Positions 2,926 through 31,740 of a stretch of 44,115 bases of DNA are shown in pieces. The notes beneath the pieces were generated by a model. The model saw only the letters and a list, made by a program, of their open reading frames with translations. It did not search any database and had not been told where the DNA came from. The stretch comes from Pseudomonadota bacterium. GTDB taxonomy: Bacteria; Pseudomonadota; Gammaproteobacteria; Acidiferrobacterales; UBA6901. The first letter of the stretch is position 1. Every line of letters starts with the position of its first letter. The position numbers and the translations under genes are program-made. The DNA is taken from positions 1 to 44,115 of the forward strand of contig JAKASJ010000025.1 in assembly GCA_021819085.1 (NCBI GenBank), given 5' to 3'.

Positions 2926-3827
2926 GGTGAGACTAATGTACTAGATTGGTGCCGCCTTGAGAATAACGCATTTCCGGCTGCTGGAGCCGGCAATGAATGT
3001 TGCCAGGCGGTTCATTGTCTAACCCGGGGCTCCCCATGGACAGTCCGGAAGAATGCAGGCTATGGATAAACCCAAGCCTTTGCCGGCACTGCCTGCACCC
3101 GGGTCTGTGGCCCTAACGGTATTCCCGAGAATACCAGACAGATAGCGCCTGGCATTTGAAAAATGGGCTTCCGGCCCTGAGGCTGCCCGTTGCGCCTCAG
3201 TCCTGCAATTTTTATTACCCATTTTTTCTACGGTCCGCTTTTCCAAAATAATTTCTGTTCGATCTGGTAGGACAATAAAAAACAATCAGCGGTAGTTCCG
3301 GTACGCTGAGCAGGCGTGCTCCATGCGCCTTAAACTAGCAATGAATCATGCCTAAGTTGCACCAGAGAATTGCACGTGCTTTGCGGCTTATCGGCTCTGC
3401 CAATGGAGCGGCACGCGACGCATTTAATGCCTTATAGTTGCATCAGCACAGCCAACTCCCATTTCAAGCGGCGATGTAGCGGAAATGAACGTGCCAGGTT
3501 ACAACATCACGGTTTTAGCTATTAGGTTCCGTTTTGTTGGGGCTAGTCGTTTGGACAAGGAGCACAACGCCACCCCTCTGACCAGCATTTGCCGCAGCTG
3601 TGCCAGCCAGTCAGCGATATTGTCGTTGGGTCTTCGAGTGTTGCGGCAGTTTATTGGCTTGCGGCTTGCCGGCAGGACATTCTTCGGGTAATCCAACCTC
3701 ACCTCCTGCATGACCTTACGGTAAAAGTAACCTAAAAATCGGGGCCCCGGCAGACGGTAGCGCTGGATTTATGGTTTGATGGGCGGTGGCTCATCATTCG
3801 ATTCTCTTTGCGGACAGGAACGAGACG
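2926..3827. other. About 900-bp gap, no convincing gene
   Basis: Short open frames exist on both strands (for example 3019-3285 minus and 3499-3711 minus). They have non-ATG or weakly supported starts, no recognisable domains and no consistent codon bias. A 10-bp palindrome CGGGGCCCCG lies near 3740. The stretch looks like eroded or non-coding DNA. Confidence 0.4.
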
Positions 3828-4667
3828 CTAGGACTCGGGTGATCCATGCCTTGCCGCCTCCCACGAATGCATCGCATGTTTCCGCAGTTCACCCCAGCGG
3901 TATCCTCCGAGGTAGCCGCTCTGCTGGATGACACGATGACAAGGGATCAGGAACGCGACGGGATTTGCGCCCACAGCGAGACCGACCGCCCTTGCGGCGC
4001 GTGGGCGGCCTGTCGCCGCTGCTACCTGAGAATAGCTCGCGATCGATCCCGGAGGAATACGCAGCAACGCCTTCCATACATTGACCTGGAAGTTGGTGCC
4101 GCAGACATGCAAGGATAGTGGCCGAGACGGCCTTTCTTTGCCGTTAAAAATAGTTCTGCTAACCGCTAGTGTCCGCTGGCGGTTTTCCCGCAGCACTGCG
4201 CGTGGCCATGTCCTGGACAGCGCGGCCAAATGCTCGTCGATATCTGGCGTCTCCACGAATGATAAGCTGCAAATTCCTCTGGTGGTGAGGGCAATAAATG
4301 CCCGCCCAAAGGGAGTGTCATGCGCGGAGTACTCAATGGACAGCCCTGCTCCTCCCGTTTTGTACTCACCCGGCGTAACGGCTTCCAGTTGAACGAAATG
4401 GTCATACAGACGAGAGGCGCTGCTCAACCCGATGGCTTCGGAAACCTCGAGCAACGGCTTCGGCTCCCGGAGCATCTGCTTGGCGCGTTCCAATGTGAGA
4501 ACCTGCAGGAATCTTTTGGGGGTTACTCCCGCCCAGCGGCAGAATACGCGTTGAAAATGAAAAGGACTGAGGTGCACATGCGCCGCGATTTCGTTCAAAG
4601 TCGGCTGGCTGTCCGTATGGCTGACAATGAAAGCAATCGCCTCGGCTATGCGATCATAGTCTGACAT
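3828..4667 (-). CDS. AraC-type HTH / methylated-DNA-protein cysteine methyltransferase (Ada-like, without the zinc domain)
   Basis: Residues 1-100 are an AraC-family double helix-turn-helix (LNEIAAHVHLSPFHFQRVF, then EVSEAIGLSSASRLYDHF). Residues from about 110 onward are an O6-alkylguanine-DNA alkyltransferase domain with the active-site motif PCHRV at about 242-246 (acceptor Cys about 243). The protein takes alkyl groups from O6-guanine onto cysteine and probably regulates transcription. Classical Ada has an extra N-terminal zinc domain that senses methylphosphotriesters; it is absent here, so the inducing signal is unclear. A good AAGGATG ribosome site precedes the ATG. It lies upstream of nothing obvious but within 500 bp of a second alkylation-repair gene on the same strand. 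Confidence 0.9.
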   Translation of the reverse strand: MSDYDRIAEAIAFIVSHTDSQPTLNEIAAHVHLSPFHFQRVFCRWAGVTPKRFLQVLTLERAKQMLREPKPLLEVSEAIGLSSASRLYDHFVQLEAVTPGEYKTGGAGLSIEYSAHDTPFGRAFIALTTRGICSLSFVETPDIDEHLAALSRTWPRAVLRENRQRTLAVSRTIFNGKERPSRPLSLHVCGTNFQVNVWKALLRIPPGSIASYSQVAAATGRPRAARAVGLAVGANPVAFLIPCHRVIQQSGYLGGYRWGELRKHAMHSWEAARHGSPES

Positions 4668-5158
4668 TCTGGGGCATCCTTATACGCACGCTTAATACGC
4701 AACTCGATGCATTCAGCGGCATCACGTTTGGTGAAACGGGATTGTGCATCAAGTGCTCTCCGGAGACGGATCACGAGGCGCATGTATTGTGGGGTCCGGA
4801 CTAGCCCCGTTCAACCCGGATCTTGCCATGCTGAAATAGGGCACCGGCAGCTCCTGTCGATGTACTTGACGGGGCCTGGGGGGAGCACACTTCCGGATTC
4901 CTGCGCACTCCCGCAATGTCTGACGGCTATCGGCGGAATATGCAACGGTGGGCAGCCGGCTCGGCCAGCGCGTGCGGGACCGCCAGACTGCCGATATCGC
5001 AATCGAATCCGACAGCAATCCACATTGCGGCAGGGGCTATCCGATGATCGGTGCGTCGCGCTGCCGGATTCCTTTAAGATACCACCACAAGCCCAAGGCT
5101 GACCGTCAAAAGCCGGCAAAAAAGTCCAAAATTTCAGAGGATACGCAATCCTTCGCGG
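4668..5158. other. Gap between the two alkylation-repair genes
   Basis: This 490-base stretch presumably carries the promoter of the AraC-MGMT gene. Open frames on both strands (for example 4707-5102 plus) show no domain, start signal or codon bias that I trust. No Ada-box-like repeat stands out. Confidence 0.4.
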
Positions 5159-6370
5159 CTACTTTCTCGCCAAATCGGCAGCACGCCATAAATACCAGCT
5201 TGCGACCGTGCGGTAGGGCATCCATCGTTTGCCATGTATTTCTAGCTCAGCGTGGCTCGGCAGCGTGCGCTTCCTAAAGGCGATCGCGTAGCCTTTGCGG
5301 ATGCCATAATCGTCCACCGGCAGCACGTCCGGGCGTCCGAGGCGGAAAATAAGAAGCATTTCCGCCGTCCACCGTCCGATCCCACGAACTTCACTAAGGC
5401 TTTCGATAATCGTATCGTCTGCCATGCGGTGGATCTCCGTGAGAGTGGGAATCTCGCCCGCAGCAGCGCGTCGCGCAAGGTCGCGGAGCGAAAGGAGCTT
5501 TGAATGCGACAGGCCGGCGGCGCGCAGTTTTTTGTCGGAGGCGCCCAGGATATGCTCGCTCGTAAGGCCTTCATGTGCGTGCGGAAATAGTGCACATAGA
5601 CGAGCGAAAATAGTTACCGCAGCCTTTCCGGAAAGTTGCTGGTGAACAATTGCCTCCGCGAGCGCAGCGAAGACGCTCGTCGTTCTCTTGAGCCGCATGC
5701 AAAAAGGACCTACATCATGGATGACGCGCCCGAGTGCCGGGTCGGCGCGGCGCAGGCGCCCAATCGCTACGTCCGGATCGAAGCCGAATGTGCCGTCGCC
5801 ATCGAAGAGGCAACTCTGGCCGGTTGCTCGCGTCGCCTCGATCGCTAGGAGCTGAAGCTTCGTCGCGATGCCGCCGTTCGCAGAGAAGCCACCGATCATG
5901 CCGCCGGCAGCGAGTACACGATGGCATGGTACGATGATCGCGAATGGGTTATGTCCGAGGGCCTGCCCAACGGCGCGTGCGGCGCCGTGTGCGCCCAGCA
6001 TTGCGGCGATGTCACCATACGATCGCGTGGCGCCCGGAGGAATTGTCCGTGCCGCCTCGTACACTCGACGGCAAAATACCGACACGCTGTCCATGTCAAG
6101 CCGGGCGGCGGAGAGATCACTTTCCTCGCCGCACAGCAGTGCGACGATACCGTCGATTGACCGTTGCACCTCGGGTGGGGGCGAAGATTCAGTTGCGCTG
6201 GGGAATTGTCGGATCAGGTGTGCCCGTGCCGCATGTTCCCGGGTCTCTGGAAACTGCACTCCGACGATTCCACTTTTGCTCCAGACGATGCTGCAATACC
6301 CAATTGCCGTGCCGAAAACCGCAAAGCCCTGCTTCGTCGGGGCGCACCTGATGGAACGAATGGATACCAT
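5159..6370 (-). CDS. MGMT / DNA-3-methyladenine glycosylase (AlkA-type) fusion
   Basis: From the chosen ATG at 6370 the protein has 403 residues. Residues 1-165 are an alkylguanine-DNA alkyltransferase domain with PCHRV at about 148-152 (acceptor Cys149). Residues 205-403 are an AlkA-like helix-hairpin-helix glycosylase. It shows IVHQQLSGKAA, the hairpin LSEVRGIGRWTAEMLLIF (about 325-342), a VDDYGIRKG motif whose second Asp (about 354) matches the AlkA catalytic Asp, and the C-terminal RWMPYRTVASWYLWR. One polypeptide thus combines direct O6-alkyl reversal with excision of N3/N7-alkylated bases. The frame stays open to an ATG at 6559 (466 residues), but the extra 63 residues match no domain; 6451 is another possible start. 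The 6559 ATG overlaps the stop of a small upstream frame as ATGA, so the longer form cannot be excluded. Confidence 0.88.
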   Translation of the reverse strand: MVSIRSIRCAPTKQGFAVFGTAIGYCSIVWSKSGIVGVQFPETREHAARAHLIRQFPSATESSPPPEVQRSIDGIVALLCGEESDLSAARLDMDSVSVFCRRVYEAARTIPPGATRSYGDIAAMLGAHGAARAVGQALGHNPFAIIVPCHRVLAAGGMIGGFSANGGIATKLQLLAIEATRATGQSCLFDGDGTFGFDPDVAIGRLRRADPALGRVIHDVGPFCMRLKRTTSVFAALAEAIVHQQLSGKAAVTIFARLCALFPHAHEGLTSEHILGASDKKLRAAGLSHSKLLSLRDLARRAAAGEIPTLTEIHRMADDTIIESLSEVRGIGRWTAEMLLIFRLGRPDVLPVDDYGIRKGYAIAFRKRTLPSHAELEIHGKRWMPYRTVASWYLWRAADLARK

Positions 6371-6763
6371 ATCATGCAAACCCTTATCGTCATCTGATTC
6401 ATCGCTCGTTCCCGACCCGTGAACCGTTTCGGGACGTCCGGGAGCATTCATGCGGTCTTGACCCTGTCCCCAGTCCGGACCAAGATGGATCGAAGCACAG
6501 CAGATTAGACCGTGGCGCATCCACTGGGGTACGGTGGGCAGATACCGCATTTGTATCATCGATCAAGACGAAATGGGAGACAGATCCTTACAGGCGTGTC
6601 TAACTTGCCCCAGTCCATAATTTTTCCATCGTTTCGCGTTCTGGCCATAGTTACAAATGCACTTTGCTGGCCTGGATCGTAAGGATTCCGATTTTTTTCA
6701 TGTTCAAGGCCTATTTGGTTTTCCTTGTCAGGAATGAAGCAATACGGACGGAGCTGTTCATTG

Positions 6764-7177: not shown

Positions 7178-8725
7178 ATGATTCCACTGGTTCTGGTGTA
7201 TACAGCACTGCTTGTCTACCTTGGGCGGCTGGGACGCCGCAAGGCGCGCGCTTGCGACTTCGTTATGGGCGGTCGTCAATTCACGGCAACAAAAGTGTTC
7301 TTCATGATTAGTGCGCTGTGGTGTTCCTGGATATTCATGGTAGAGATAGAAAGCGCCTATTTATTCGGTGTCTCGGCGGCCTGGTTCGGCATAAGTGTTG
7401 GCGTGATGGCTGTCGCTGGCGGCCTTCTGCTTAGGACCCGATTTGCAAAATTGAGTTATGTGACCAACAGCAGGCTTCTTGGAGAGCGTTTTGGGACGAT
7501 GGCGGGAGTGCTTGCCGGTCTGGTTCTCGGTATTACCTTTCCAATATTTGCCATGTCCAATGTTCTGGCGGCCGCCGCGTTCATCCATGCGGTCACCGGA
7601 TGGAGCTTTCTGGGCACGCTCGTAGGAACGGCGATCGTGATTGTGTCTTATATTTTTGGCGGCGGCATATGGGCGCTCGCCTATGTCCAGATCGCCAATT
7701 TCATAACTATATCGATAGGTCTGCTGGTGGGAACCGTGGTCGTGCTGCATACCGATTCGCTATCGGCATTGGCAGCACATCTTCCAGCGGGATATTTGAA
7801 GTGGGACGGGGTAGGGGCGTCCACAATCTTGTTATGGCTGTTTTCAACCCTTCTCGGAGTCATGAGCGCGCAGGCCGAGTTCCAGATTCTGATGGCGGCA
7901 TCCGATCACAGGACCGCGCGCAGGGGTCTGGGATGGGCCATGGTGTCCGTGGGAATATTTGCCGTCCTGTCGGCGGTGATAGGGCTGTGTGTAAGAGCAG
8001 GCACAAGCAACCACAACATGTACGCTGTTCTCGCGTTCCCTGCATTTTTTATACGGAATGCCCCGCGGGATGTTGTGGCAGTGATGGCACTTGCCGTGTG
8101 GGCTTCCGCATTGGCATGGTCGGCACCACTTATATTTTCCGGAGCTTCTAGCATGGGCATCGATGTCATTCGGCCTGGCTTCCGGAATCGTTTTGGTGAT
8201 GCGACGAAGCTGTCTGTCCAGATCTGCCTCCCCGTACAGGCTGCATTGGTCGTACTTTATGCATTGGCAAGGCCTGATCATCTAGCCTGGTGGCAGATGT
8301 TTTCACTGACCATAAGAAATGGAGCAATATTTGCTCCGACAGCAGCCCTGCTGGTATGGCCCGCAGTGCAAAAAAACGCAGCGGTTATGTCCATGGTCTT
8401 GGGAAGCGGCAGTGGTCTTTTGTGGAATATCCTGGGTCGATTTTCGACGGAACATTTCGTTCTCGGGATTGATCCCATGTGGATTGCCGCGATTGCCGGT
8501 ATCGTGAGCCTTGTGCTTATGACGCTACTTTCAGGGCTGCGGGTGCACAAGCTCGATGTAGCGGCAGTCAACAGCTATCGGGGTTGGGCATCCGTGGCGG
8601 TCTTGATTGCAAGCGGGATGCTGGCTGTGGAGGGATGGGGGGCGCATTCTTTTGCGGGCCCCCTCGTGCTGACGATGTCTTTGTCGGTCCTGGCTTTGTG
8701 TGCCCTTGTGGTGCGCAGGAAGTGA
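7178..8725 (+). CDS. Sodium:solute symporter family (SSS) transporter
   Basis: The 515-residue protein is almost entirely hydrophobic, with about a dozen membrane-spanning segments. Near the N-terminus it has the SSS pattern RKARACDFVMGGRQFTATKVFFMISALWCSW, where family members have a motif describing GGR...S/TW at the first helices. SSS proteins import sugars, amino acids, carboxylates or other solutes with sodium. The substrate cannot be inferred: the QAEFQ and RAGTSNHN stretches are not diagnostic to me. No strong ribosome-binding site precedes the ATG. The gene stands alone between gaps, about 600 bp before the TetR gene on the same strand. It could belong to the accessory TetR-DsrE-binding protein locus, but nothing in the sequence proves it. 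Confidence 0.8.
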   Translation: MIPLVLVYTALLVYLGRLGRRKARACDFVMGGRQFTATKVFFMISALWCSWIFMVEIESAYLFGVSAAWFGISVGVMAVAGGLLLRTRFAKLSYVTNSRLLGERFGTMAGVLAGLVLGITFPIFAMSNVLAAAAFIHAVTGWSFLGTLVGTAIVIVSYIFGGGIWALAYVQIANFITISIGLLVGTVVVLHTDSLSALAAHLPAGYLKWDGVGASTILLWLFSTLLGVMSAQAEFQILMAASDHRTARRGLGWAMVSVGIFAVLSAVIGLCVRAGTSNHNMYAVLAFPAFFIRNAPRDVVAVMALAVWASALAWSAPLIFSGASSMGIDVIRPGFRNRFGDATKLSVQICLPVQAALVVLYALARPDHLAWWQMFSLTIRNGAIFAPTAALLVWPAVQKNAAVMSMVLGSGSGLLWNILGRFSTEHFVLGIDPMWIAAIAGIVSLVLMTLLSGLRVHKLDVAAVNSYRGWASVAVLIASGMLAVEGWGAHSFAGPLVLTMSLSVLALCALVVRRK

Positions 8726-9244
8726 CTTGTCCGCGGCACGTCGCTCGCGCATGGGGTAAGTCTGACGCGCGTCGTGCGGCGTCTGACGCTCGAGCTTGGC
8801 AAGTGCGGGTAATGAACCCGCGTCCGTAGTCTCTGGTACGGTTGCCCGGACAGTCGGCATTCCGTTCGCGGGGGCCTGCGTTGTGGCATCGGACCATCTT
8901 GGCGTCCGGCACTTCCTGCGGCGCCTCTTTGTGCCAGAGTCTTGTGAAACCCTACTCTTTAGGCAGACAGCGCAACTCGACGTGTCCTGGTAGCGCGATG
9001 CTTCTTTATGGCCACGGTGCGTTCCTTTCTGCGCGAGTTAGGGCTGATTTCGTCAGCTTCCGCCATGTAATTACTTCTCTAGCCTGCCAGGTTGTTTGCG
9101 CTTTAAGTCGGGGTGATAGCGCTTTTGCCGAGCATTCAGACACATATGATCTATCTATTGTAACTAGTTGTAACTATATAAACGGATTGAGGTATCTTTG
9201 CCGGTAAAGATCGTCAGTCGACAAATTGCGCACTTTGTCCGATC
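8726..9244. other. Gap between symporter and TetR gene
   Basis: No convincing gene is visible. The right part (9120-9240) is AT-rich and contains a direct repeat TTGTAACTA at about 9157 and 9168, suitable for a promoter region of the TetR gene. No clear terminator follows the symporter stop. Confidence 0.35.
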
Positions 9245-9269
9245 ATTCTAAAGTATAGAATGTATATTC
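9245..9269. promoter_or_regulatory. Candidate operator upstream of the TetR gene
   Basis: Two interlocked inverted repeats occur here: ATTCTA-N5-TAGAAT (9245-9261) and GAAT-GTAT-ATTC (9258-9269). The octamer TAGAATGT at 9256 recurs at 10994 within the operator region of the dsrE-like operon. A shared word at both places suggests that the TetR protein binds both and represses itself. This is an inference from sequence symmetry only. Confidence 0.4.
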
Positions 9270-9355
9270 GACCATTGGTGGGTTGATTCTGAAGCATGGC
9301 AATGCTATCGAACAAGTTACGATAGGAAATGTTGAGTCCGGAGACGCGTATATCT

Positions 9356-9958
9356 ATGCCAATTGCCAAAAAAACAATTCGGGAAATGATCGAATCCCGG
9401 CCGCTGCCTGCGCGGGTACTGGATACTGCCATGCGTCTTTTTGTTCGCAAAGGCTACTTCAGTACCTCCATTCAAGATATTGTGCAGGAGTCTGGTGTCA
9501 GCACGGGCTCTATATACCATTACTTCGGAGATAAGGAGAGCATCGCGAAGGCGCTGTACGTTACTTACATCGACCGAATGAGTTCCGAAATGAATCGAAT
9601 TTATCAGCAAGAGAGCACATTGCGCGAGCGGTCGCGGGCGGTAATCAGACTTCTGTTCGAACTGACAGAGCAGGAACCTGAGGCTATCGCATTTATGCTT
9701 GGAGCCAAGCTCCAGGAGTTCCTGCCTGACGAAGTTCCAGTATGTTCCGCTCGCCCTTTCGAGCAAATGAGAGACATGGTGAAAGAGGGCATCGAGCAGA
9801 AAGAGATTCGGAATCTGCCGCCTATAGTGGCTGTTTCCGCGCTATACGGTGCGGCACACCGGATGATTCACCACAGGATAGAAGGTCGTGTGAAAGAACC
9901 GCTGTACCGCTACGAAGCTGAAGTGTGGGAATGTGGCTGGAGATCCGTTGCCAAGTGA
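9356..9958 (+). CDS. TetR/AcrR-family transcriptional regulator
   Basis: The 200-residue protein (counted from the ATG at 9356) has the TetR N-terminal helix-turn-helix: ARVLDTAMRLFVRKGYFSTSIQDIVQESGVSTGSIYHYFGDKE, residues about 18-60. A helical ligand-binding domain of about 130 residues follows. Such proteins repress target promoters until a small ligand releases them. The frame is open to an ATG at 9329, but the AGGA there sits only one or two bases from that codon, whereas GGAG at 9340-9343 suits 9356 better. Likely targets are its own promoter and the palindromic promoter at 10.98 kb, which share the word TAGAATGT. The C-terminal domain gives no hint of the ligand. Confidence 0.9.
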   Translation: MPIAKKTIREMIESRPLPARVLDTAMRLFVRKGYFSTSIQDIVQESGVSTGSIYHYFGDKESIAKALYVTYIDRMSSEMNRIYQQESTLRERSRAVIRLLFELTEQEPEAIAFMLGAKLQEFLPDEVPVCSARPFEQMRDMVKEGIEQKEIRNLPPIVAVSALYGAAHRMIHHRIEGRVKEPLYRYEAEVWECGWRSVAK

Positions 9959-10940
9959 GTATTCAGACCGATGCGCCGGAGGGCGTTGGCACCTGAATGT
10001 GTTGGTGCTGTCTGGTGCCTACAGGTGTATCACGCCGGCGGCGGTACGGATGTCGCTATGTGTCCCATGCATTTTTGATGTCTATCTCAACCCCCCATTG
10101 CGGAACAACGCCGCCATCCCGGTAAGGGCAGCTCGACGCTCCGCGGCATGGTTTGGCCGTGCGGAATTGTGTGTCTTCCTTATTTGCGCGGGGAATCGCG
10201 CCATGGCTTCAGAGAGGTCAGCCCTGCGTCAAGTTCGGGACGTGCCACGTCTAAAAAAGCGATAGAACAAATTTTCCAATTGTTAATCAGCGTGCGGTCC
10301 CGTGTTCGAGTGTGTGAAGCGCGCCGTAACCGCGGGCTTGTCTCGGCCGTTGCCTGCGGCGGAGGTAACGCTGCCCGAAGCACAGTTGTTTGTACCGGTC
10401 TCCGTGGCCAATGTTTCGCAGCCTGCTGCCGGAATACGCGCGGATCTGCTGTGGGCTCGCTCGCAAGGAGGGCGAAGTCCGTGCTGCTGCAGGAGGATAT
10501 CAGACGATTCATCCCACGGACCTGCGTACCTCCCTGTTCTGCGAGTGCAACAATGCCTATGCGTGGTCCTCTATTTACCGATGTGTCCGATGCCTCGGGC
10601 TGGCGAGAGGTGTTCCATCGATTGTGAAGGGCAGACCGTGCCTGTGATCAATCAGGAACGCGGCGAGGTGCGCGAGGCACAAAGGTTCGTCGCAAGTGGT
10701 GGCACGAGCTCCTGCCCCTGCTACGAGACTAACCTGGACGCAACCGCATCCTGACCGGATCGGCTCTTACACGTGCCTACCCTGGTGCATTTCCCAATCG
10801 CCACTGGGCGGTTCTTTCGCGACTAGATTGCCAGGACCTATGCGCGATAGGGAAATATGCTGAAATCGAAGCAGGTTTAGATGCATGGCGATGCCGGGTC
10901 ATCGGATAGTCCGAGCCTCCACCGGTAACCTTAGTCTCTC
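9959..10940. other. About 1-kb gap, possibly a decayed gene
   Basis: Several overlapping plus-strand frames of about 85-160 codons occur (for example 10302-10754), none with a domain or uniform codon bias. A few segments have a coding flavour that switches frames near 10440-10480, so a degraded gene is possible. I could not name a parent family. Confidence 0.3.
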
Positions 10941-10969
10941 TTGACAACGAGAGCCTATTTCTCTAGGTT
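10941..10969 (+). promoter_or_regulatory. Sigma-70-type promoter of the dsrE-like operon
   Basis: TTGACA at 10941-10946 is followed after 17 bases by TAGGTT at 10964-10969. TATAAC at 10970-10975 is an alternative but poorly spaced -10. Transcription would start within the adjacent palindrome, about 150 bp before the dsrE-like start codon. Confidence 0.5.
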
Positions 10970-10978
10970 TATAACTAG

Positions 10979-11006
10979 AACGAACGTTCGTTTTAGAATG
11001 TTCGTT
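10979..11006. promoter_or_regulatory. TetR-type operator: 14-bp perfect palindrome plus a second site
   Basis: AACGAACGTTCGTT (10979-10992) is a perfect palindrome, directly followed by AATGTTCGTT (10997-11006), which repeats one half-site. It lies immediately downstream of the -10 element, where bound repressor would block transcription. The geometry is typical of TetR-family operators, and a TetR gene lies 1 kb upstream. Confidence 0.6.
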
Positions 11007-11135
11007 CCAGAACACACATTCACATGTAACACATTGGAATGGAACCGGTATTTCTAAACCCATGAATAGGTACTGAGTGGGTTGCCTGCCCAGAGAGTTG
11101 CCTGTGTCGGTGGCCCCGTACCTGGAGGAACGGTG

Positions 11136-11636
11136 ATGATCAAAGAAATGACAAAGGTACAAAGGGTCCTTCGTGTTCTGCTTTTTGCGCTCGCGTGTGT
11201 GCCTGTTTCGGCATTTGCGCAAGGCAACGGCGGCAGTCGCGCGCTAGACGGGCACTCAACGGCCTATTACCAGCACCACACGTTCAAGGTGGTATTTGAG
11301 GTTCCGGCAAATCCGAAGCTGTGGCCCGCTGTCGCATTAGTGGTTACGCATAACCTGGTCAGCATGATGGGCCATAACGTGCATGTGAAAGCCATCATGG
11401 TGGCGCCAGGACCGGCGATCCATTATTTCATGAGCCAGTTCAACGCAGGCGATTATAAGCGTCTTGAAAGATTGCATGAACTCGGCGTCCGCTTTGTCGC
11501 ATGCAATGCAGCTCTAGTGGCTTTTCACGTAAAAAGAAATCAGCTGTTCCCGTTTGTCGGGGTCGCGTACCCAAGCGGAGTGGTGTATTTGCTGAAGAAA
11601 CAGGCCCAGGGATATTCCTACTACGTCTGGTCATGA
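11136..11636 (+). CDS. Periplasmic DsrE/DsrF-like protein
   Basis: The 166-residue product has a clear signal peptide (VLRVLLFALACVPVSAFA then QG, cleavage about residue 28). Its mature domain resembles the DsrE/F/YchN fold: KVVFEVPANPKLWPAVALVVTHNL, then VKAIMVAPGPAIHYF, and a single mature-domain Cys in FVACNAAL, at the place where DsrE-like proteins have a redox or persulfide-carrying cysteine. A sulfur-relay or sulfur-binding role in the periplasm is therefore plausible but unproven. The ATG at 11136 has a strong GGAGG ribosome site; the frame extends upstream to 11082 without a better signal. It is the first gene after the palindromic promoter and is followed 111 bp later by a binding-protein gene. 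Its regulation by the TetR protein is inferred from the operator. Confidence 0.75.
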   Translation: MIKEMTKVQRVLRVLLFALACVPVSAFAQGNGGSRALDGHSTAYYQHHTFKVVFEVPANPKLWPAVALVVTHNLVSMMGHNVHVKAIMVAPGPAIHYFMSQFNAGDYKRLERLHELGVRFVACNAALVAFHVKRNQLFPFVGVAYPSGVVYLLKKQAQGYSYYVWS

Positions 11637-11747
11637 TCTCAGTTTGAGGTAAGAAATCAGTAGCCCCAAAGCTATAGATAGACTGAGCGATCACAGCCAT
11701 GCCGTTGGGCGGGGTAGCAATCAAACCTTATGGCGGGAGAATTAAAA

Positions 11748-12590
11748 ATGAACCGATTTTCGACCATTATCTCAATACTGCTAGCGTGTGGTGCCATGAC
11801 TTTGTCGGCCATGGCGAGGGCGGAAGCCCAGACGCACACTACCATACGGGTATTTGCTTCAGACGCGACCGAAAAGCCGGTGCGTCAGATCGGTTATATA
11901 TTCGAGAAAGAACACCCCAATGCAAAGTTGCATTACGAGTTTTCCGCTTCTGGCGTCTTCTATATAGCCATTGTGCAAGGGGTTCCTCCTGACATCTACA
12001 TTTCCGCGGGCAACAAATATCAGGATAAACTGACAGACAAGGCCAGCATCGGGCTCCCGCGCACCATCGCGTACGATTCTCTGTCAGCAGCCACCCCTTG
12101 TTACAATCCGGTACAAGACGGACCGAAAGAGGGTCTTACGGAATCAAACGTCATCAGTTTGATGACAAATAAAAATATCAGCCTTGCGGTAGCCAGACCG
12201 ACTTTGAGTCCTGCGGGAGATTACACGACGAAAATGTTCGATATGATTAATCGGAAGGACCCGGAAGCGTTACCGGCGCTAGGACGTGCTCGCAAGGTTC
12301 TGAGTCCCGCCCAGATCTTTCCCTTGCTTGCCCAGCAGAAAGCTGATTTGGGCATAGTCTACTCGTCCCAGGTCGCAGCTCTAAAAAGGCAGGCAGGCTG
12401 CGTCAACGCGGTGACGATCCCAAGACCCTACAACATGCGTGTGCCATTTACTATCTCGGTATTGAACAAATCACCGTTCCATTTTGTGAGCCCCGAAAGG
12501 CGCAGCCTAGATCAGGCATTTCAACGCCTGGTGCTGTCTCGCGAAGGGCAGTCAATCCTGAAACAGTGGGGGTTTGTGCCAGCAAAATAG
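11748..12590 (+). CDS. Periplasmic substrate-binding protein, ModA-like (type II fold)
   Basis: The 280-residue protein begins with a signal peptide (MNRFSTIISILLACGAMTLSAMARA). It then shows the layout of ModA-type oxyanion-binding proteins: IRVFASDATEKPVRQIGYIFEK, PPDIYISAGNKYQD, ARPTLSPAGDYTTKMFD (compare ModA PAGxYA) and ADLGIVYSSQV. ModA captures molybdate or tungstate for an ABC importer. Here no permease or ATPase gene is adjacent, so this is an orphan that may serve a distant transporter or act as a sensor or scavenger. GGGAGAA precedes the ATG at 11748; an in-frame ATG at 11730 is less likely. It follows the dsrE-like gene and ends before a strong hairpin, which defines a two-gene operon. 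The ligand is unknown, and several residues around the usual oxyanion site look divergent. Confidence 0.78.
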   Translation: MNRFSTIISILLACGAMTLSAMARAEAQTHTTIRVFASDATEKPVRQIGYIFEKEHPNAKLHYEFSASGVFYIAIVQGVPPDIYISAGNKYQDKLTDKASIGLPRTIAYDSLSAATPCYNPVQDGPKEGLTESNVISLMTNKNISLAVARPTLSPAGDYTTKMFDMINRKDPEALPALGRARKVLSPAQIFPLLAQQKADLGIVYSSQVAALKRQAGCVNAVTIPRPYNMRVPFTISVLNKSPFHFVSPERRSLDQAFQRLVLSREGQSILKQWGFVPAK

Positions 12591-12609
12591 TTATGGGCAG
12601 GAATCCCGG

Positions 12610-12638
12610 GCGGGGATCATCGTCACGTTGATCCCCGC
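12610..12638 (+). terminator. Hairpin ending the dsrE-like / binding-protein operon
   Basis: GCGGGGATCA (12610-12619) and TGATCCCCGC (12629-12638) form a perfect 10-bp stem with a 9-base loop, 20 bases after the stop codon. The T tract is weak (CTCGTTTC), so termination may be partial. Confidence 0.6.
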
Positions 12639-12840
12639 CTCGTTTCGGTGCGATATCTCGAAAACAGGATGTGCGGCGGATGATCGCGCTTGAGCTCATT
12701 TGCAGTCTAAGCATAACTACGACAATGCTCAGCGATGTCATTCCCTGCCTGAACGGCTCAGGTACTCCGAGCAATGGGAGATTCGCCTGGACACATAAGC
12801 TTGGCCTGCAATTTGCGTAGGCTGGGCGCGGAGGTTTTTC

Positions 12841-13128: not shown

Positions 13129-13978
13129 ACATTGACCGGCACCAGAAACACCAGAGCAGAGATCGCGGCAGAAAAACCCGTATTGTTACTGGCTACCGCG
13201 ACCAGCGTGCGGTTCTGGAAATTTAGGGGTTCCCGCAATGCGCGTGCGCAACGTCAATGAATAGGTCTTGTAGCCGCCCCAGCCGAAGGATCGTCGAGTG
13301 AACGATCGACCGAGGCAGGCTGCCAGCGGCGCCGGGGCGGCCATTACTTCTAAACAGCGGTTGTCGCCGGTTTAATTTCCGCCGGCGCGTATAGGGTGAG
13401 GGGGCAATCGAGACCAGACCCACGCAGATGCGCGACATCACCGAGCTCGCGCGAAGGCTCGAATCTGACCGGCGCATAGCAGAACTGTCAGTGGCCCCAG
13501 GGAAATTGCCGCTGCCCGTGCGGTTGAGGCGGTTGCGTCGGTAGAAAACCGCTCCGACGTTTGCATTGCAACTGACCTGGCCTGCTCGCAAATAGGATCT
13601 CATCGGTAAAAACGTCAGAAGCCTCTTGCTGGGTCATTGAAGATAGAAGTCATGGGCCGAGGCAGGCCGAAATTCAGCAATTTAGCACTGTTCGGCCCCG
13701 GCCTGTGTGGCTGGCAGCGCCGGTTAACATTCTAAATATGGATCCTTGTTTTGGTAGTACTAATCGATCTCTGCGCGATGTTGTTGGATTACCCGCAAGC
13801 ATCTGTCCGAAAGTGTGAACCCCGTTTCCACGCACATTCCGAGCGGTTGCGCCCACATTCCATTTATCGGCATCCCGGCTATCTGGCGGGCTGTATGCGA
13901 CCAGCTAACGCTGTGTATAATCCAGCCCCGAACACCGGCCGCGGGCCGGCGATAATCACTGAAGATCCAACAAGAGTT
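13129..13978. other. About 850-bp gap before the HPP gene
   Basis: A 38-codon plus-strand frame at about 13429-13545 (MRDITELARRLESDRR...) has coding flavour but no support. The HPP-family frame stays open back to 13751, but its first 76 residues do not belong to the family. Nothing else is recognisable. Confidence 0.35.
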
Positions 13979-18817: not shown

Positions 18818-19694
18818 ATGAACTGTGTCGGAGCGCTCGCCTTCGGTATCGGCCTTCTCGCAGCTTTCCCGGCGCGTGCTGTGCCCACCGCTGCAGATGC
18901 CGGCATGGGTGGGGAGAGACGGATATCGGCGACCCCTTGAAGCCGGAAGGGTCCTGACCCGGAGTGAGGAGATACGCGCCGGTATCGCGGCACGCGTTCT
19001 TGTGCGGTTTCCTGACGGCGGTGAACTCAGTCTGGGCGAGCGGGCACGTATCACGCTTGCTCAGATGCGTCCTGTCAGATCTGACAGGACGTACCGGACC
19101 ATGCTGATTGTCCACCGCGGCTCGTTCCGCATTGCAAACGTGCCGGACAAGGATAGCCTCCACCACTACATAAGCGTACATCTGGGTACGACCCACGTTC
19201 ATATTCTCAGCGGCGATGTCTGGGGTCGCGTGGGCATGCGTTCTGCTGTTATCTGCCTTGTCCAAGGCCACATCGCTGTTCGCGACCCTGCGGCCGGTCG
19301 GCTGGACATGGAAAAGCCGATGACACTTCTCCGTGTCGGCCGAACGCCGCACCCGCTCCGGGTGCGGCCGGTGAATCCGCTAAGCTTCAAAAGCTGGTCG
19401 GCACAGACTGAGATCATTCCGGGAGAGGGTCTAACCGTTCCCGAAGGTGCGTGGTTCGTGCAGTTGGCCGCCCAGAAGCGCCAGCGCGACCTGTATCCGA
19501 TGCAGCATCGCCTCGCGGCCGCCGGCTATCCCGTGAAGATGACCAAAGCGCGTGTCAAAAGCAGAACTTTCTACCGGCTTCGAATCGGAGGTTTCGGCAG
19601 CCAAGCCGATGGGCAGATTTTTGCCGGCCGCATGCGCGAACACTATGGCGTTGCTGTGCCATGGGTAGTGCGGGGGCACGGAAAGTCGAATTGA
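18818..19694 (+). CDS. FecR-like / SPOR-domain protein with an apparent frameshift after the signal peptide
   Basis: The ATG at 18818 has a strong GAGGGA ribosome site and encodes a good signal peptide (MNCVGALAFGIGLLAAFPARA), but that frame stops after about 40 codons. The frame shifted by one then continues for about 260 residues: PLEAGRVLTRSEEIRAGIAARVLVRFPDGGELSLGERARI (FecR-like sheet domain), VHRGSFRIANVP, then GAWFVQLAAQKRQRDLYPMQHRLAAAGYPV...YRLRIGGFGSQADGQIFAGRM (SPOR, a peptidoglycan-binding domain). A GTG at 18825 would start the second frame but gives no signal peptide. A one-base indel between about 18900 and 18940 best explains the data, either a real mutation or a sequencing error. 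The intended product is a periplasmic, septum- or cell-wall-associated protein. Confidence 0.65.
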
Positions 19695-30468: not shown

Positions 30469-31569
30469 CTAACAGGGGGCAGTCCTGCCGAACCCGGCGG
30501 ATGTGCCTCTTAGCCCTCCTGCAAGCACATATGCACGCAGTCCGCGCTGGCCAAGAATATGTGCCGCCGCAGAGCTGCGACGGCCCGTGTTGCAGTAGCA
30601 AATGTATGCATTATGCGGGTCGAGGCCGTCGGCCACCTGGCACAGCATGTCCAGGGGAAGACGATAGGCGCCCGGGAGCAACGAATCTGAAGCCTCTTCC
30701 AGTGCGCGGACGTCGAGCCAGATGGCGCCCGACTCCGTCATGGACATTGCCTCCGACGGCGACAGCCAGTTCAGCGGCGGTTCGCGCCTGAGGGCGAGGA
30801 AGTGCCGGCGTGCCAATCTCAGCAGTGTGCCGCGTGTTTCCATGGTCACGCTGGCATGCCAGCGGTCCTCGCCAGACAGGCTTTCTTCGCCGAATCCCGT
30901 GCCCGGTCCGAGCATCGTCACATCGGCCGGACCATTTCCGTCGGTTTCGCAAGTCATGACGGCCGTTCCGTTCTCGACGAGATAGTAGCCGTCGGCATCC
31001 TCGCCTTCGCGAGCCACGACCTGTCCTGCCCGCACCGCAACTGATTCCAGCCGCATCCCAAGCAAATCGAGGTTGGGAGGCGGTATGTGCCGAAAAACCA
31101 GACATTGGCGAACCATGCCCATCCAGCTAGTCGCAGAGCCGGAATCAGTCCGGAACCGATTCGGCCCCGGAGCGGCCAGGCAGCCAGCGAGCGTGTCCCA
31201 TGTGACTGCGATATCGAGCAATTCACTGTCGATTCGCAGAATGTCGAGGTCTGTCACTGCCATGGCGGACACTTGGCGTGGTTGCTTGTCTGCGATCGGG
31301 CAGAGCGTTTTTGGCGCATTGCCTGCCATGTCCGCTACCCCCAGCATGCAGCTGTCTTCGTCCTTGGCGCTGCTCAGGACTATCTCGCCGCGCAGCAGAT
31401 AGACGGTCTGATAATCAGTCTCACCCTCGCGGAACAGGATCATGCCTGCGGGAATGTGTTCGATGTGGCACAGCGGTTTCAGCTCTTCGATGCGCAGGAT
31501 GCTCAGTGCTGCAATAGGTTGCAGGGCCTGGATCAGTTCTGATCCAGGCACGCACTCGATTTCAGTCAT
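30469..31569 (-). CDS. Tandem cyclic-nucleotide-binding domains fused to a rhodanese domain
   Basis: In this 366-residue protein, residues 25-120 form one cNMP-type beta roll (IEHIPAGMILFREGETDYQTVYLLRGEIVLSS). Residues 150-260 form a second (VRAGQVVAREGEDADGYYLVENGTAVMT...PGTGFGEESLSGEDRWHASVTMETRGTLLRL). Residues 268-360 form a rhodanese domain with the active-site loop CNTGRRS (Cys about 326). Rhodaneses carry sulfane sulfur on that Cys. No helix-turn-helix is present, so it is not a classic CRP regulator. It may couple nucleotide (or other ligand) binding to sulfur transfer. The ATG at 31569 is chosen; a TTG at 31575 has better spacing from GGAG. It is followed by rof. Whether the phosphate-binding residues of the cNMP folds are intact is doubtful in the first domain. 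Confidence 0.85.
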   Translation of the reverse strand: MTEIECVPGSELIQALQPIAALSILRIEELKPLCHIEHIPAGMILFREGETDYQTVYLLRGEIVLSSAKDEDSCMLGVADMAGNAPKTLCPIADKQPRQVSAMAVTDLDILRIDSELLDIAVTWDTLAGCLAAPGPNRFRTDSGSATSWMGMVRQCLVFRHIPPPNLDLLGMRLESVAVRAGQVVAREGEDADGYYLVENGTAVMTCETDGNGPADVTMLGPGTGFGEESLSGEDRWHASVTMETRGTLLRLARRHFLALRREPPLNWLSPSEAMSMTESGAIWLDVRALEEASDSLLPGAYRLPLDMLCQVADGLDPHNAYICYCNTGRRSSAAAHILGQRGLRAYVLAGGLRGTSAGFGRTAPC

Positions 31570-31740
31570 GCGCAACTTTCACTCCGGACCTTCGCGATGT
31601 GCCGCGACTTGTCGATGGCAGCAATTCCGTCAGGCGCTAGCATATCATCGGAACAGTCAGCCGTATTGCTAGGAGATGTTGCCGTACGTATGATGAATCA
31701 TCTGAGCGCCAGATATGGTCGATTGCATGAGGGGGTCGGG

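Follow-up and report, generated by a model that had tools for sequence, protein, structure and literature searches.

What might a secreted DsrE-like protein and a ModA-like solute-binding protein do together when they are encoded side by side near a TetR-family regulator and no transporter genes accompany them? This question was raised by contig JAKASJ010000025.1 of a Pseudomonadota bacterium, which was analyzed as one entire contig (C73, 44,115 bases; hereafter the window) of a 3.42-Mb genome in 78 contigs (G000). From left to right, the unit in question is composed of a sodium:solute symporter (SSF) family gene, tetR, a gap, a promoter with a predicted operator, dsrE-B, a modA-like gene, and a hairpin (Table 1). 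An initial annotation of the window had described the TetR gene, the promoter, the palindromic operator, and the DsrE-like and orphan ModA-like genes, all of which were confirmed in place. It had also proposed a sulfur-related role for the pair, which gained support from two further genomes where the pair is linked to soxYZ, soxB, and tusA. That annotation had missed the Sox link and the paralogous secreted DsrE; it had not counted the SSF gene in the unit, nor noted that G000 lacks the sox block. From comparative sequence evidence, we give a somewhat better than even chance to the reading that the unit, under TetR control, is an accessory periplasmic module serving a second, Sox-type thiosulfate-oxidation system; its role is probably accessory to sulfur oxidation and not one of nutrient import.

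Conservation of the pair and its sox neighborhood

Profiles built from three homologs were searched against 57 genomes of the order. DsrE-B was found in three of them (E ≤ 1e-20) and the ModA-like protein in the same three (E ≤ 1e-10), each time encoded next to dsrE-B, while both genes were absent from the other 54, including three of the five genomes in the same genus as the window. Across 369 genomes sampled from the class, DsrE-B (E ≤ 1e-15) occurred only in the window's own, and when one genome per species was scanned with a peptide pattern, a single relative (L008, introduced below) was identified among 28 candidate stretches. Plasmid records contained no DsrE-B relative; ModA-like proteins were present in 46 of these records, all below 60% identity. 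The initial annotation had suggested looking for co-occurrence of the two genes in other genomes and had named its lack as grounds for rejection. All three genomes having either gene held both, adjacent to each other, and the distribution was narrow (3/57 and 1/369). The dsrE-B/modA-like pair is a real, conserved but narrowly distributed unit.

The two other loci were an 18-kb stretch of a sister genome (L009 in G002) and a 12.5-kb stretch of a more distant genome of the same order (L008 in G017), a metagenome-assembled genome labelled Acidiferrobacter sp. In the sister locus, the order was SSF, tetR, soxB-soxZ-soxY-dsrE-A on the opposite strand, dsrE-B, and the modA-like gene, where DsrE-A is a secreted DsrE paralog and SoxY (131 bits), SoxZ (110.5), and SoxB (809.5) all exceeded their NCBIfam cut-offs. 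Within 10 kb, the distant locus included dsrE, tusA, tetR, a PhnD-like gene, the genes for DsrE-A, DsrE-B, and the ModA-like protein, soxY, soxZ, a gene for a DUF302 protein, and soxB. Its DsrE-A carried a lipobox, as judged by eye; its SoxB was above the NCBIfam cut-off, its SoxY scored 123.7 against a cut-off of 125, and both SoxY and SoxZ were above their Pfam cut-offs. Between the two sox loci, the dsrE-tusA pair was part of the cluster only in the distant one. Hence, soxYZ together with soxB, taken as the mark of a Sox system, occurred in both of these loci and was missing from the window. The PhnD-like gene of the distant locus (3711-4682, minus strand; PF12974) encodes a second orphan periplasmic binding protein in a sulfur cluster, and inspection of the 12.5 kb by eye showed no transporter genes for it.

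The gene order SSF-tetR-[sox block]-dsrE-B-modA was identical between the window and the sister locus except for the missing block. The SSF proteins shared 66.9% identity over 514 amino acids and had tetR as a neighbor in both, while outside the unit no DNA similarity between the window and the 18 kb was found by blastn at E 0.01. No relic of soxB, soxZ, soxY, or dsrE-A was detected in the window gap with five queries: SoxB of the sister locus did best, with 2 of 60 shuffles matching or exceeding its result, and 18 to 46 of 60 shuffles did so for each of the remaining queries. Additionally, four open reading frames (ORFs) of the gap had no Pfam match at E 1. The soxYZB arm beside the pair was probably lost in the window genome, which is the simpler reading because the sister genome and the more distant genome both hold sox genes together with the pair. 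After such a loss, the tetR-dsrE-modA remainder could be decaying, or could have some other, non-sulfur role, as would suit a block missing exactly between tetR and dsrE-B and a gap without a recognized gene. We regard this as improbable, since all four window genes (SSF, tetR, dsrE-B, and modA-like) have intact frames with 58-75% identity to the sister-genome proteins and the operator-like sites were retained.

The soxB genes beside the pair form a distinct type by sequence identity. They shared 76% identity between the sister and distant genomes, and only 53-54% with the other soxB copies (G001, G002, G003, G017, and G056); no soxB match was found in G004 and G055 at E ≤ 1e-60. The soxB-like proteins of G000 shared 54% (C4), 52% (C2), and 29% (C36) identity with the pair-linked type, and none belonged to it.

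In L036 (G002), L033 (G003), L037 (G017), and L034 (G001), the contig broke off upstream of the common soxB, at a distance of no more than about 1.2 kb. In all four, the end was located beyond a soxA-like gene (family-confirmed in L036 only) and, by eye, apparently inside soxZ; contig C4 of G000 similarly ended 46 bases past soxY. These breaks near soxB hint at repeated, near-identical soxYZ copies that broke the assemblies. A second SoxB-family protein of G000, on C2 (L021, 7014-8858 with 8880-11521), scored 823.6 bits, above the cut-off, and its neighbors included a ChrB-type gene (PF09828) and, by eye, a ChrA-like transporter gene and a superoxide-dismutase-like gene.

A predicted operator shared across three genomes

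Operator matrices were built separately from the two window sites, the sister-locus sites, and the single distant-locus site, with 99,411 bases of control loci as the background. The window-only matrix gave scores of 25.9 and 23.7 to the sister-locus sites before dsrE-B-modA and before dsrE-A-soxYZB, respectively, and 24.3 to the main distant-locus site, which ends 12 bases before the start codon of dsrE-tusA, while the background maximum was 13.2. Conversely, the main window site was recovered at 21.5 by the sister-only matrix and at 23.4 by the distant-only matrix (control maxima of 12.6 and 13.4). The window site at 9256 scored 16.1 with the sister-only matrix (background maximum 12.6) and was absent from the top four window matches of the single-site distant matrix; autoregulation of tetR through this site is possible.

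A merged pattern was derived from these very sites, so that only its rarity elsewhere counts as a test. With up to two mismatches, it occurred at three places in G000 (two, in the window, without mismatch), at eight in G002 (two without mismatch, both at the sister locus), and at two in G017 (one without mismatch, at the distant locus), as compared with zero, two, and zero places for a reversed control pattern. The further matches were viewed by eye: six in G002 (one with one mismatch and five with two) and a single one each in G000 and G017. None was located before a recognizable sox or dsrE gene. The G017 match (L044 1501-1518, on C33; two mismatches) extends over the initial codons of an HdrB-like gene belonging to an hdr-type cluster, as judged by eye; this weak lead was treated as a coding coincidence.

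At four of the six sites in the three genomes, a TTGACA preceded the operator, with its start 31, 33, 35, and 40 bases away; each was followed 16-17 bases later by a second hexamer recognized by eye. The sites before the window tetR and before dsrE-tusA had no such TTGACA. In the window, the promoter TTGACA-N17-TAGGTT and the palindrome behind it were present as first described, with a -10 hexamer that matches the consensus at only three of six positions; the promoter was not listed by a consensus scan. The promoter-operator layout suits a repressor that blocks the promoter, and the proposed TetR control fits both the layout and the conservation of the operators in three genomes.

The perfect palindrome AACGAACGTTCGTT (10979-10992) would not be exceptional alone, as the window contains eight perfect palindromes of at least 14 bases, and longer ones were found at 1972-1991 (20 bases) and 19068-19091 (24 bases). 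A 15-base form of it, with up to three mismatches, had two window matches, which are the same palindrome on both strands, and 34 of 100 shuffles reached two. The significance of the operator comes instead from the recurrence of the longer motif in two other genomes, and not from the palindrome or short words. The second half-site of the initial annotation was found as an inverted repeat with arms at 10975-10989 and 10996-11010 (87% complementary). The word TAGAATGT was located at 9256 and 10994 as reported, along with an unmentioned third copy at 13727 on the minus strand (0.46 copies expected), and only the copy at 9256 sits inside a full operator-like site. A hairpin does follow the operon, with one mismatch after its 12 outer pairs where a perfect one had been described; it was not listed as terminator-like because no T-run follows, and is a possible terminator.

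Table 1. Features of the unit in the window and the evidence for each
Feature	Position	Strand	Evidence
SSF-family (sodium:solute symporter) membrane protein	7178-8725	+	PF00474 E=1e-6, above cut-off
Operator-like site upstream of tetR, TAGAATGTATATTCGACCAT	9256-9275	+	scores 16.1 with the L009 matrix
tetR, TetR-family regulator, 209 aa	9329-9958	+	PF00440 (TetR_N) E=2.8e-16; PF16295 (TetR_C_10) above cut-off
Gap without recognizable gene, ~980 bases	9959-10935	.	soxB-soxZ-soxY-dsrE-A here in the sister genome, opposite strand
Promoter-like TTGACA-N17-TAGGTT, weak -10	10941-10969	+	read from sequence; TTGACA at 10941-10946
Palindromic operator (predicted), TAGAACGAACGTTCGTTTTA	10976-10995	+	palindrome scan, genome pattern search, operator matrices
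Second half-operator (predicted), GAATGTTCGTTCCAG, overlapping	10996-11010	+	inverted repeat with 10975-10989, 87% complementary
dsrE-B, secreted DsrE/DsrF-like protein, 166 aa	11136-11636	+	PF02635 E=0.0011, under cut-off
ModA-like periplasmic solute-binding protein, 280 aa	11748-12590	+	PF13531 E=8.7e-31; TIGR01256 76 bits
GC-rich hairpin after operon	12608-12640	+	12 outer pairs, then one mismatch; z=-2.55

The regulator carries the N-terminal DNA-binding domain of the TetR family. In an alignment it shared 75% identity with its sister-locus homolog and 41% with the distant one, and one of its residues, the cysteine C139, is invariant across the three homologs. The SSF gene adjoins tetR in the window and the sister locus, which would agree with the pair sensing an oxyanion or sulfur compound in the periplasm and signaling to TetR via the symporter-like protein. 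A transporter-like protein of Hyphomicrobium, SoxT1B, serves SoxR as a signal unit (PMC11582611), and the window retains no catalytic partner. The sensor role is nevertheless quite unlikely, as no SSF gene was seen by eye among the ORFs of the 12.5-kb distant locus and no signaling domain was recognized in the three proteins.

Elsewhere in the window, two alkylation-repair proteins are neighbors: one with an AraC-type helix-turn-helix and a methylguanine methyltransferase domain (3828-4667, minus strand), the other a methyltransferase fused to an HhH-GPD glycosylase (5159-6559, minus strand). A third protein (30472-31575, minus strand) joins cyclic-nucleotide-binding and rhodanese domains (PF00027 and PF00581).

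The DsrE-B and ModA-like proteins

Both proteins had initially been described as secreted; their signal peptides were judged by eye, and the N-terminus of DsrE-B is signal-peptide-like on this basis. By its sequence, DsrE-B is a remote DsrE/DsrF-like protein. The ortholog in the distant genome scored 23.4 with PF02635, above the gathering cut-off, and the best solved relative in a profile search was MTH1491 (1l1s; E=0.0048). An alignment and a tree were made from three DsrE-B, two DsrE-A, and five further DsrE proteins of G000, where DsrE-B formed one clade with a support of 0.983. Cys123, within GVRFVACNAAL, was present in all ten aligned proteins and is a candidate sulfur-carrying residue; it sits a few residues after a G-V pair, a motif taken from the alignment and not from a family record. 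Secreted DsrE near sulfur genes seems to recur, because one of the G000 DsrE proteins lies within about 5 kb of genes for a thioredoxin-like protein, the adenosine phosphosulfate (APS) reductase beta subunit, an AprA-looking flavin adenine dinucleotide protein, and ATP sulfurylase.

The ModA-like protein exceeded the cut-off of the modA equivalog TIGR01256 (62.5 bits) in all three homologs (76.0, 94.3, and 65.0 bits), and its structure-profile matches were E. coli ModA (1amf, 3r26, and 4xxu) and the ModA of 4kd5 (E down to 1.3e-16). Ligand residues of perrhenate-bound E. coli ModA listed in PMC8895017 are Ser12, Ser39, Ala125, Val152, and Tyr170. By this list, the last four are kept, while the Ser12 position is Ala in every homolog, inside an invariant ASDA. 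Besides these, the mature protein contains two invariant cysteines (C118 and C218) that are absent from the E. coli segment.

No modB or modC gene accompanies the window gene: among 18 window ORFs scanned (8 + 10, a part of all ORFs in the window), none matched an ATP-binding cassette (ABC) permease or ATPase, in agreement with the initial annotation. Likewise, no ABC genes were seen by eye among the ORFs beside the sister and distant homologs. A separate, complete modABC was found on C8 of G000 (ModA 196.9, ModB 234.6, and ModC 418.6 bits, all above cut-off), and its ModA differs from E. coli ModA at all five pocket positions. ModB was above the cut-off in G000 and G002, and was not found above it in G017, a genome that is 77% complete.

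These observations bear on an alternative where the ModA-like protein is a second molybdate or tungstate receptor, working in trans with the ModBC of the genome and made when sulfur oxidation needs molybdenum enzymes. It would account for the passed equivalog cut-off in all three homologs, the retained Ser39, Ala125, Val152, and Tyr170 positions, and the presence of ModB in the window and sister genomes. It is nonetheless unlikely: G000 already possesses a full modABC that includes a ModA of its own, three other genomes of the genus hold ModB without this protein, G017 has the protein and no ModB above the cut-off at its 77% completeness, Ser12 is replaced by Ala in all three homologs, and the neighbors in the sister and distant loci are sulfur genes. 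In our reading, thiosulfate or sulfite/sulfate would be a more likely ligand than molybdate.

A putative Sox accessory module and its relation to known systems

The gene linkage and the shared operator-like sequence are supported by the comparisons above; we infer TetR binding, a ligand, a chemistry, and a direction of transfer for the proposed Sox accessory module. TetR would repress dsrE-B-modA, as well as dsrE-A-soxYZB and dsrE-tusA where present, and an available sulfur compound would release it from the promoters. Once exported, DsrE-B may hold either sulfane sulfur or a thiosulfonate on the invariant cysteine, in analogy to the uptake of thiosulfonate from tetrathionate by DsrE3A, and may exchange this group with SoxYZ or the paralogous DsrE-A in the periplasm. 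The ModA-like protein would capture a tetrahedral oxyanion in the same compartment and, rather than delivering it to an ABC importer, present or buffer it for this exchange. In G000, where soxYZB is not adjacent, the pair would work with the other Sox proteins of the genome. A more specific version, doubtful when all of its parts are taken jointly, is that TetR is a repressor sensing sulfur species via C139, that the secreted DsrE carrier and a ModA-derived thiosulfate binder form a second Sox relay, and that the sulfane sulfur of thiosulfate fits into the space left by the missing Ser12 hydroxyl, so that an import receptor has turned into a substrate-presenting protein.

Several observations weigh against the proposed module. 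The window's own locus is without a sox gene, and only three genomes carry the pair, so that the statistics rest on few lineages. The second site of the distant locus, before dsrE-A and the pair, is weak (10.1-14.2, near background), a matrix scan found no operator before tetR in the sister locus, and the short core GAACGNNCGTTC is not enriched, with four places in the genome against nine for the reversed control; at the other three (L012-L014), no sulfur promoter was seen by eye. The window DsrE-B scored 19.6 bits with PF02635, under the gathering cut-off of 22.7, and the sister ortholog had no Pfam match at E 0.01. The equivalog assignment of the ModA-like protein and four of its five pocket residues also fit molybdate. 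Additionally, AlphaFold models of the DsrE-B and ModA-like proteins, made from three-sequence alignments, were unusable (predicted local distance difference test values of 44.8 and 35.6, respectively).

The open-access literature searched, in part as excerpts, yielded no TetR-controlled sox system, with unrelated co-mentions only; it also yielded no TetR-family repressor associated with sulfane sulfur or persulfide, and no periplasmic DsrE or combination of DsrE and ModA in sulfur oxidation. A review of Acidithiobacillus names two-component systems, and the word TetR does not occur in it (PMC6335251). A divergent DsrEFH-like complex occurs in a different setting, the YTD cluster of cable bacteria (PMC13047784).

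The closest comparisons for the individual proteins are with carriers and receptors of known type. DsrE3A of Metallosphaera cuprina takes up thiosulfonate from tetrathionate, according to PMC4175335. DsrE-B resembles such carriers, so far as they are described there, in its family by profile and its conserved cysteine, and the distant cluster includes dsrE-tusA. The DsrE3A and TusA carriers act inside the cell, whereas the N-terminus of DsrE-B is signal-peptide-like, and its score with the Pfam model is only 19.6 bits. MTH1491 is its best solved relative, with the cysteine region aligned, but was deposited as a hypothetical protein, and its 113-residue chain aligns only past the DsrE-B leader. 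The ModA-like protein shares a family by profile and four of five ligand residues with E. coli ModA and 4kd5, and differs in the Ser12-to-Ala change within ASDA, the two invariant mature-protein cysteines, and the lack of ModBC genes seen adjacent.

At the level of the whole cluster, the Sox regulators in the literature consulted are of the ArsR type: SoxR, a sensor of sulfane sulfur, and its relative sHdrR, described for Hyphomicrobium and Paracoccus in PMC10451225. Like the clusters outlined there, the present loci combine a local regulator gene with nearby soxYZ/soxB and sulfur-trafficking genes; unlike them, they feature a TetR-family regulator with its own operator, a secreted DsrE, and a ModA-like protein. 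The Sox system itself is known, and what appears to be new is an accessory module with these three components. The secreted DsrE and the stand-alone oxyanion-binding protein, under predicted operators shared with soxYZB, are thus named candidates for study, and the TetR protein is a named candidate for a sox regulator that does not belong to the ArsR type.

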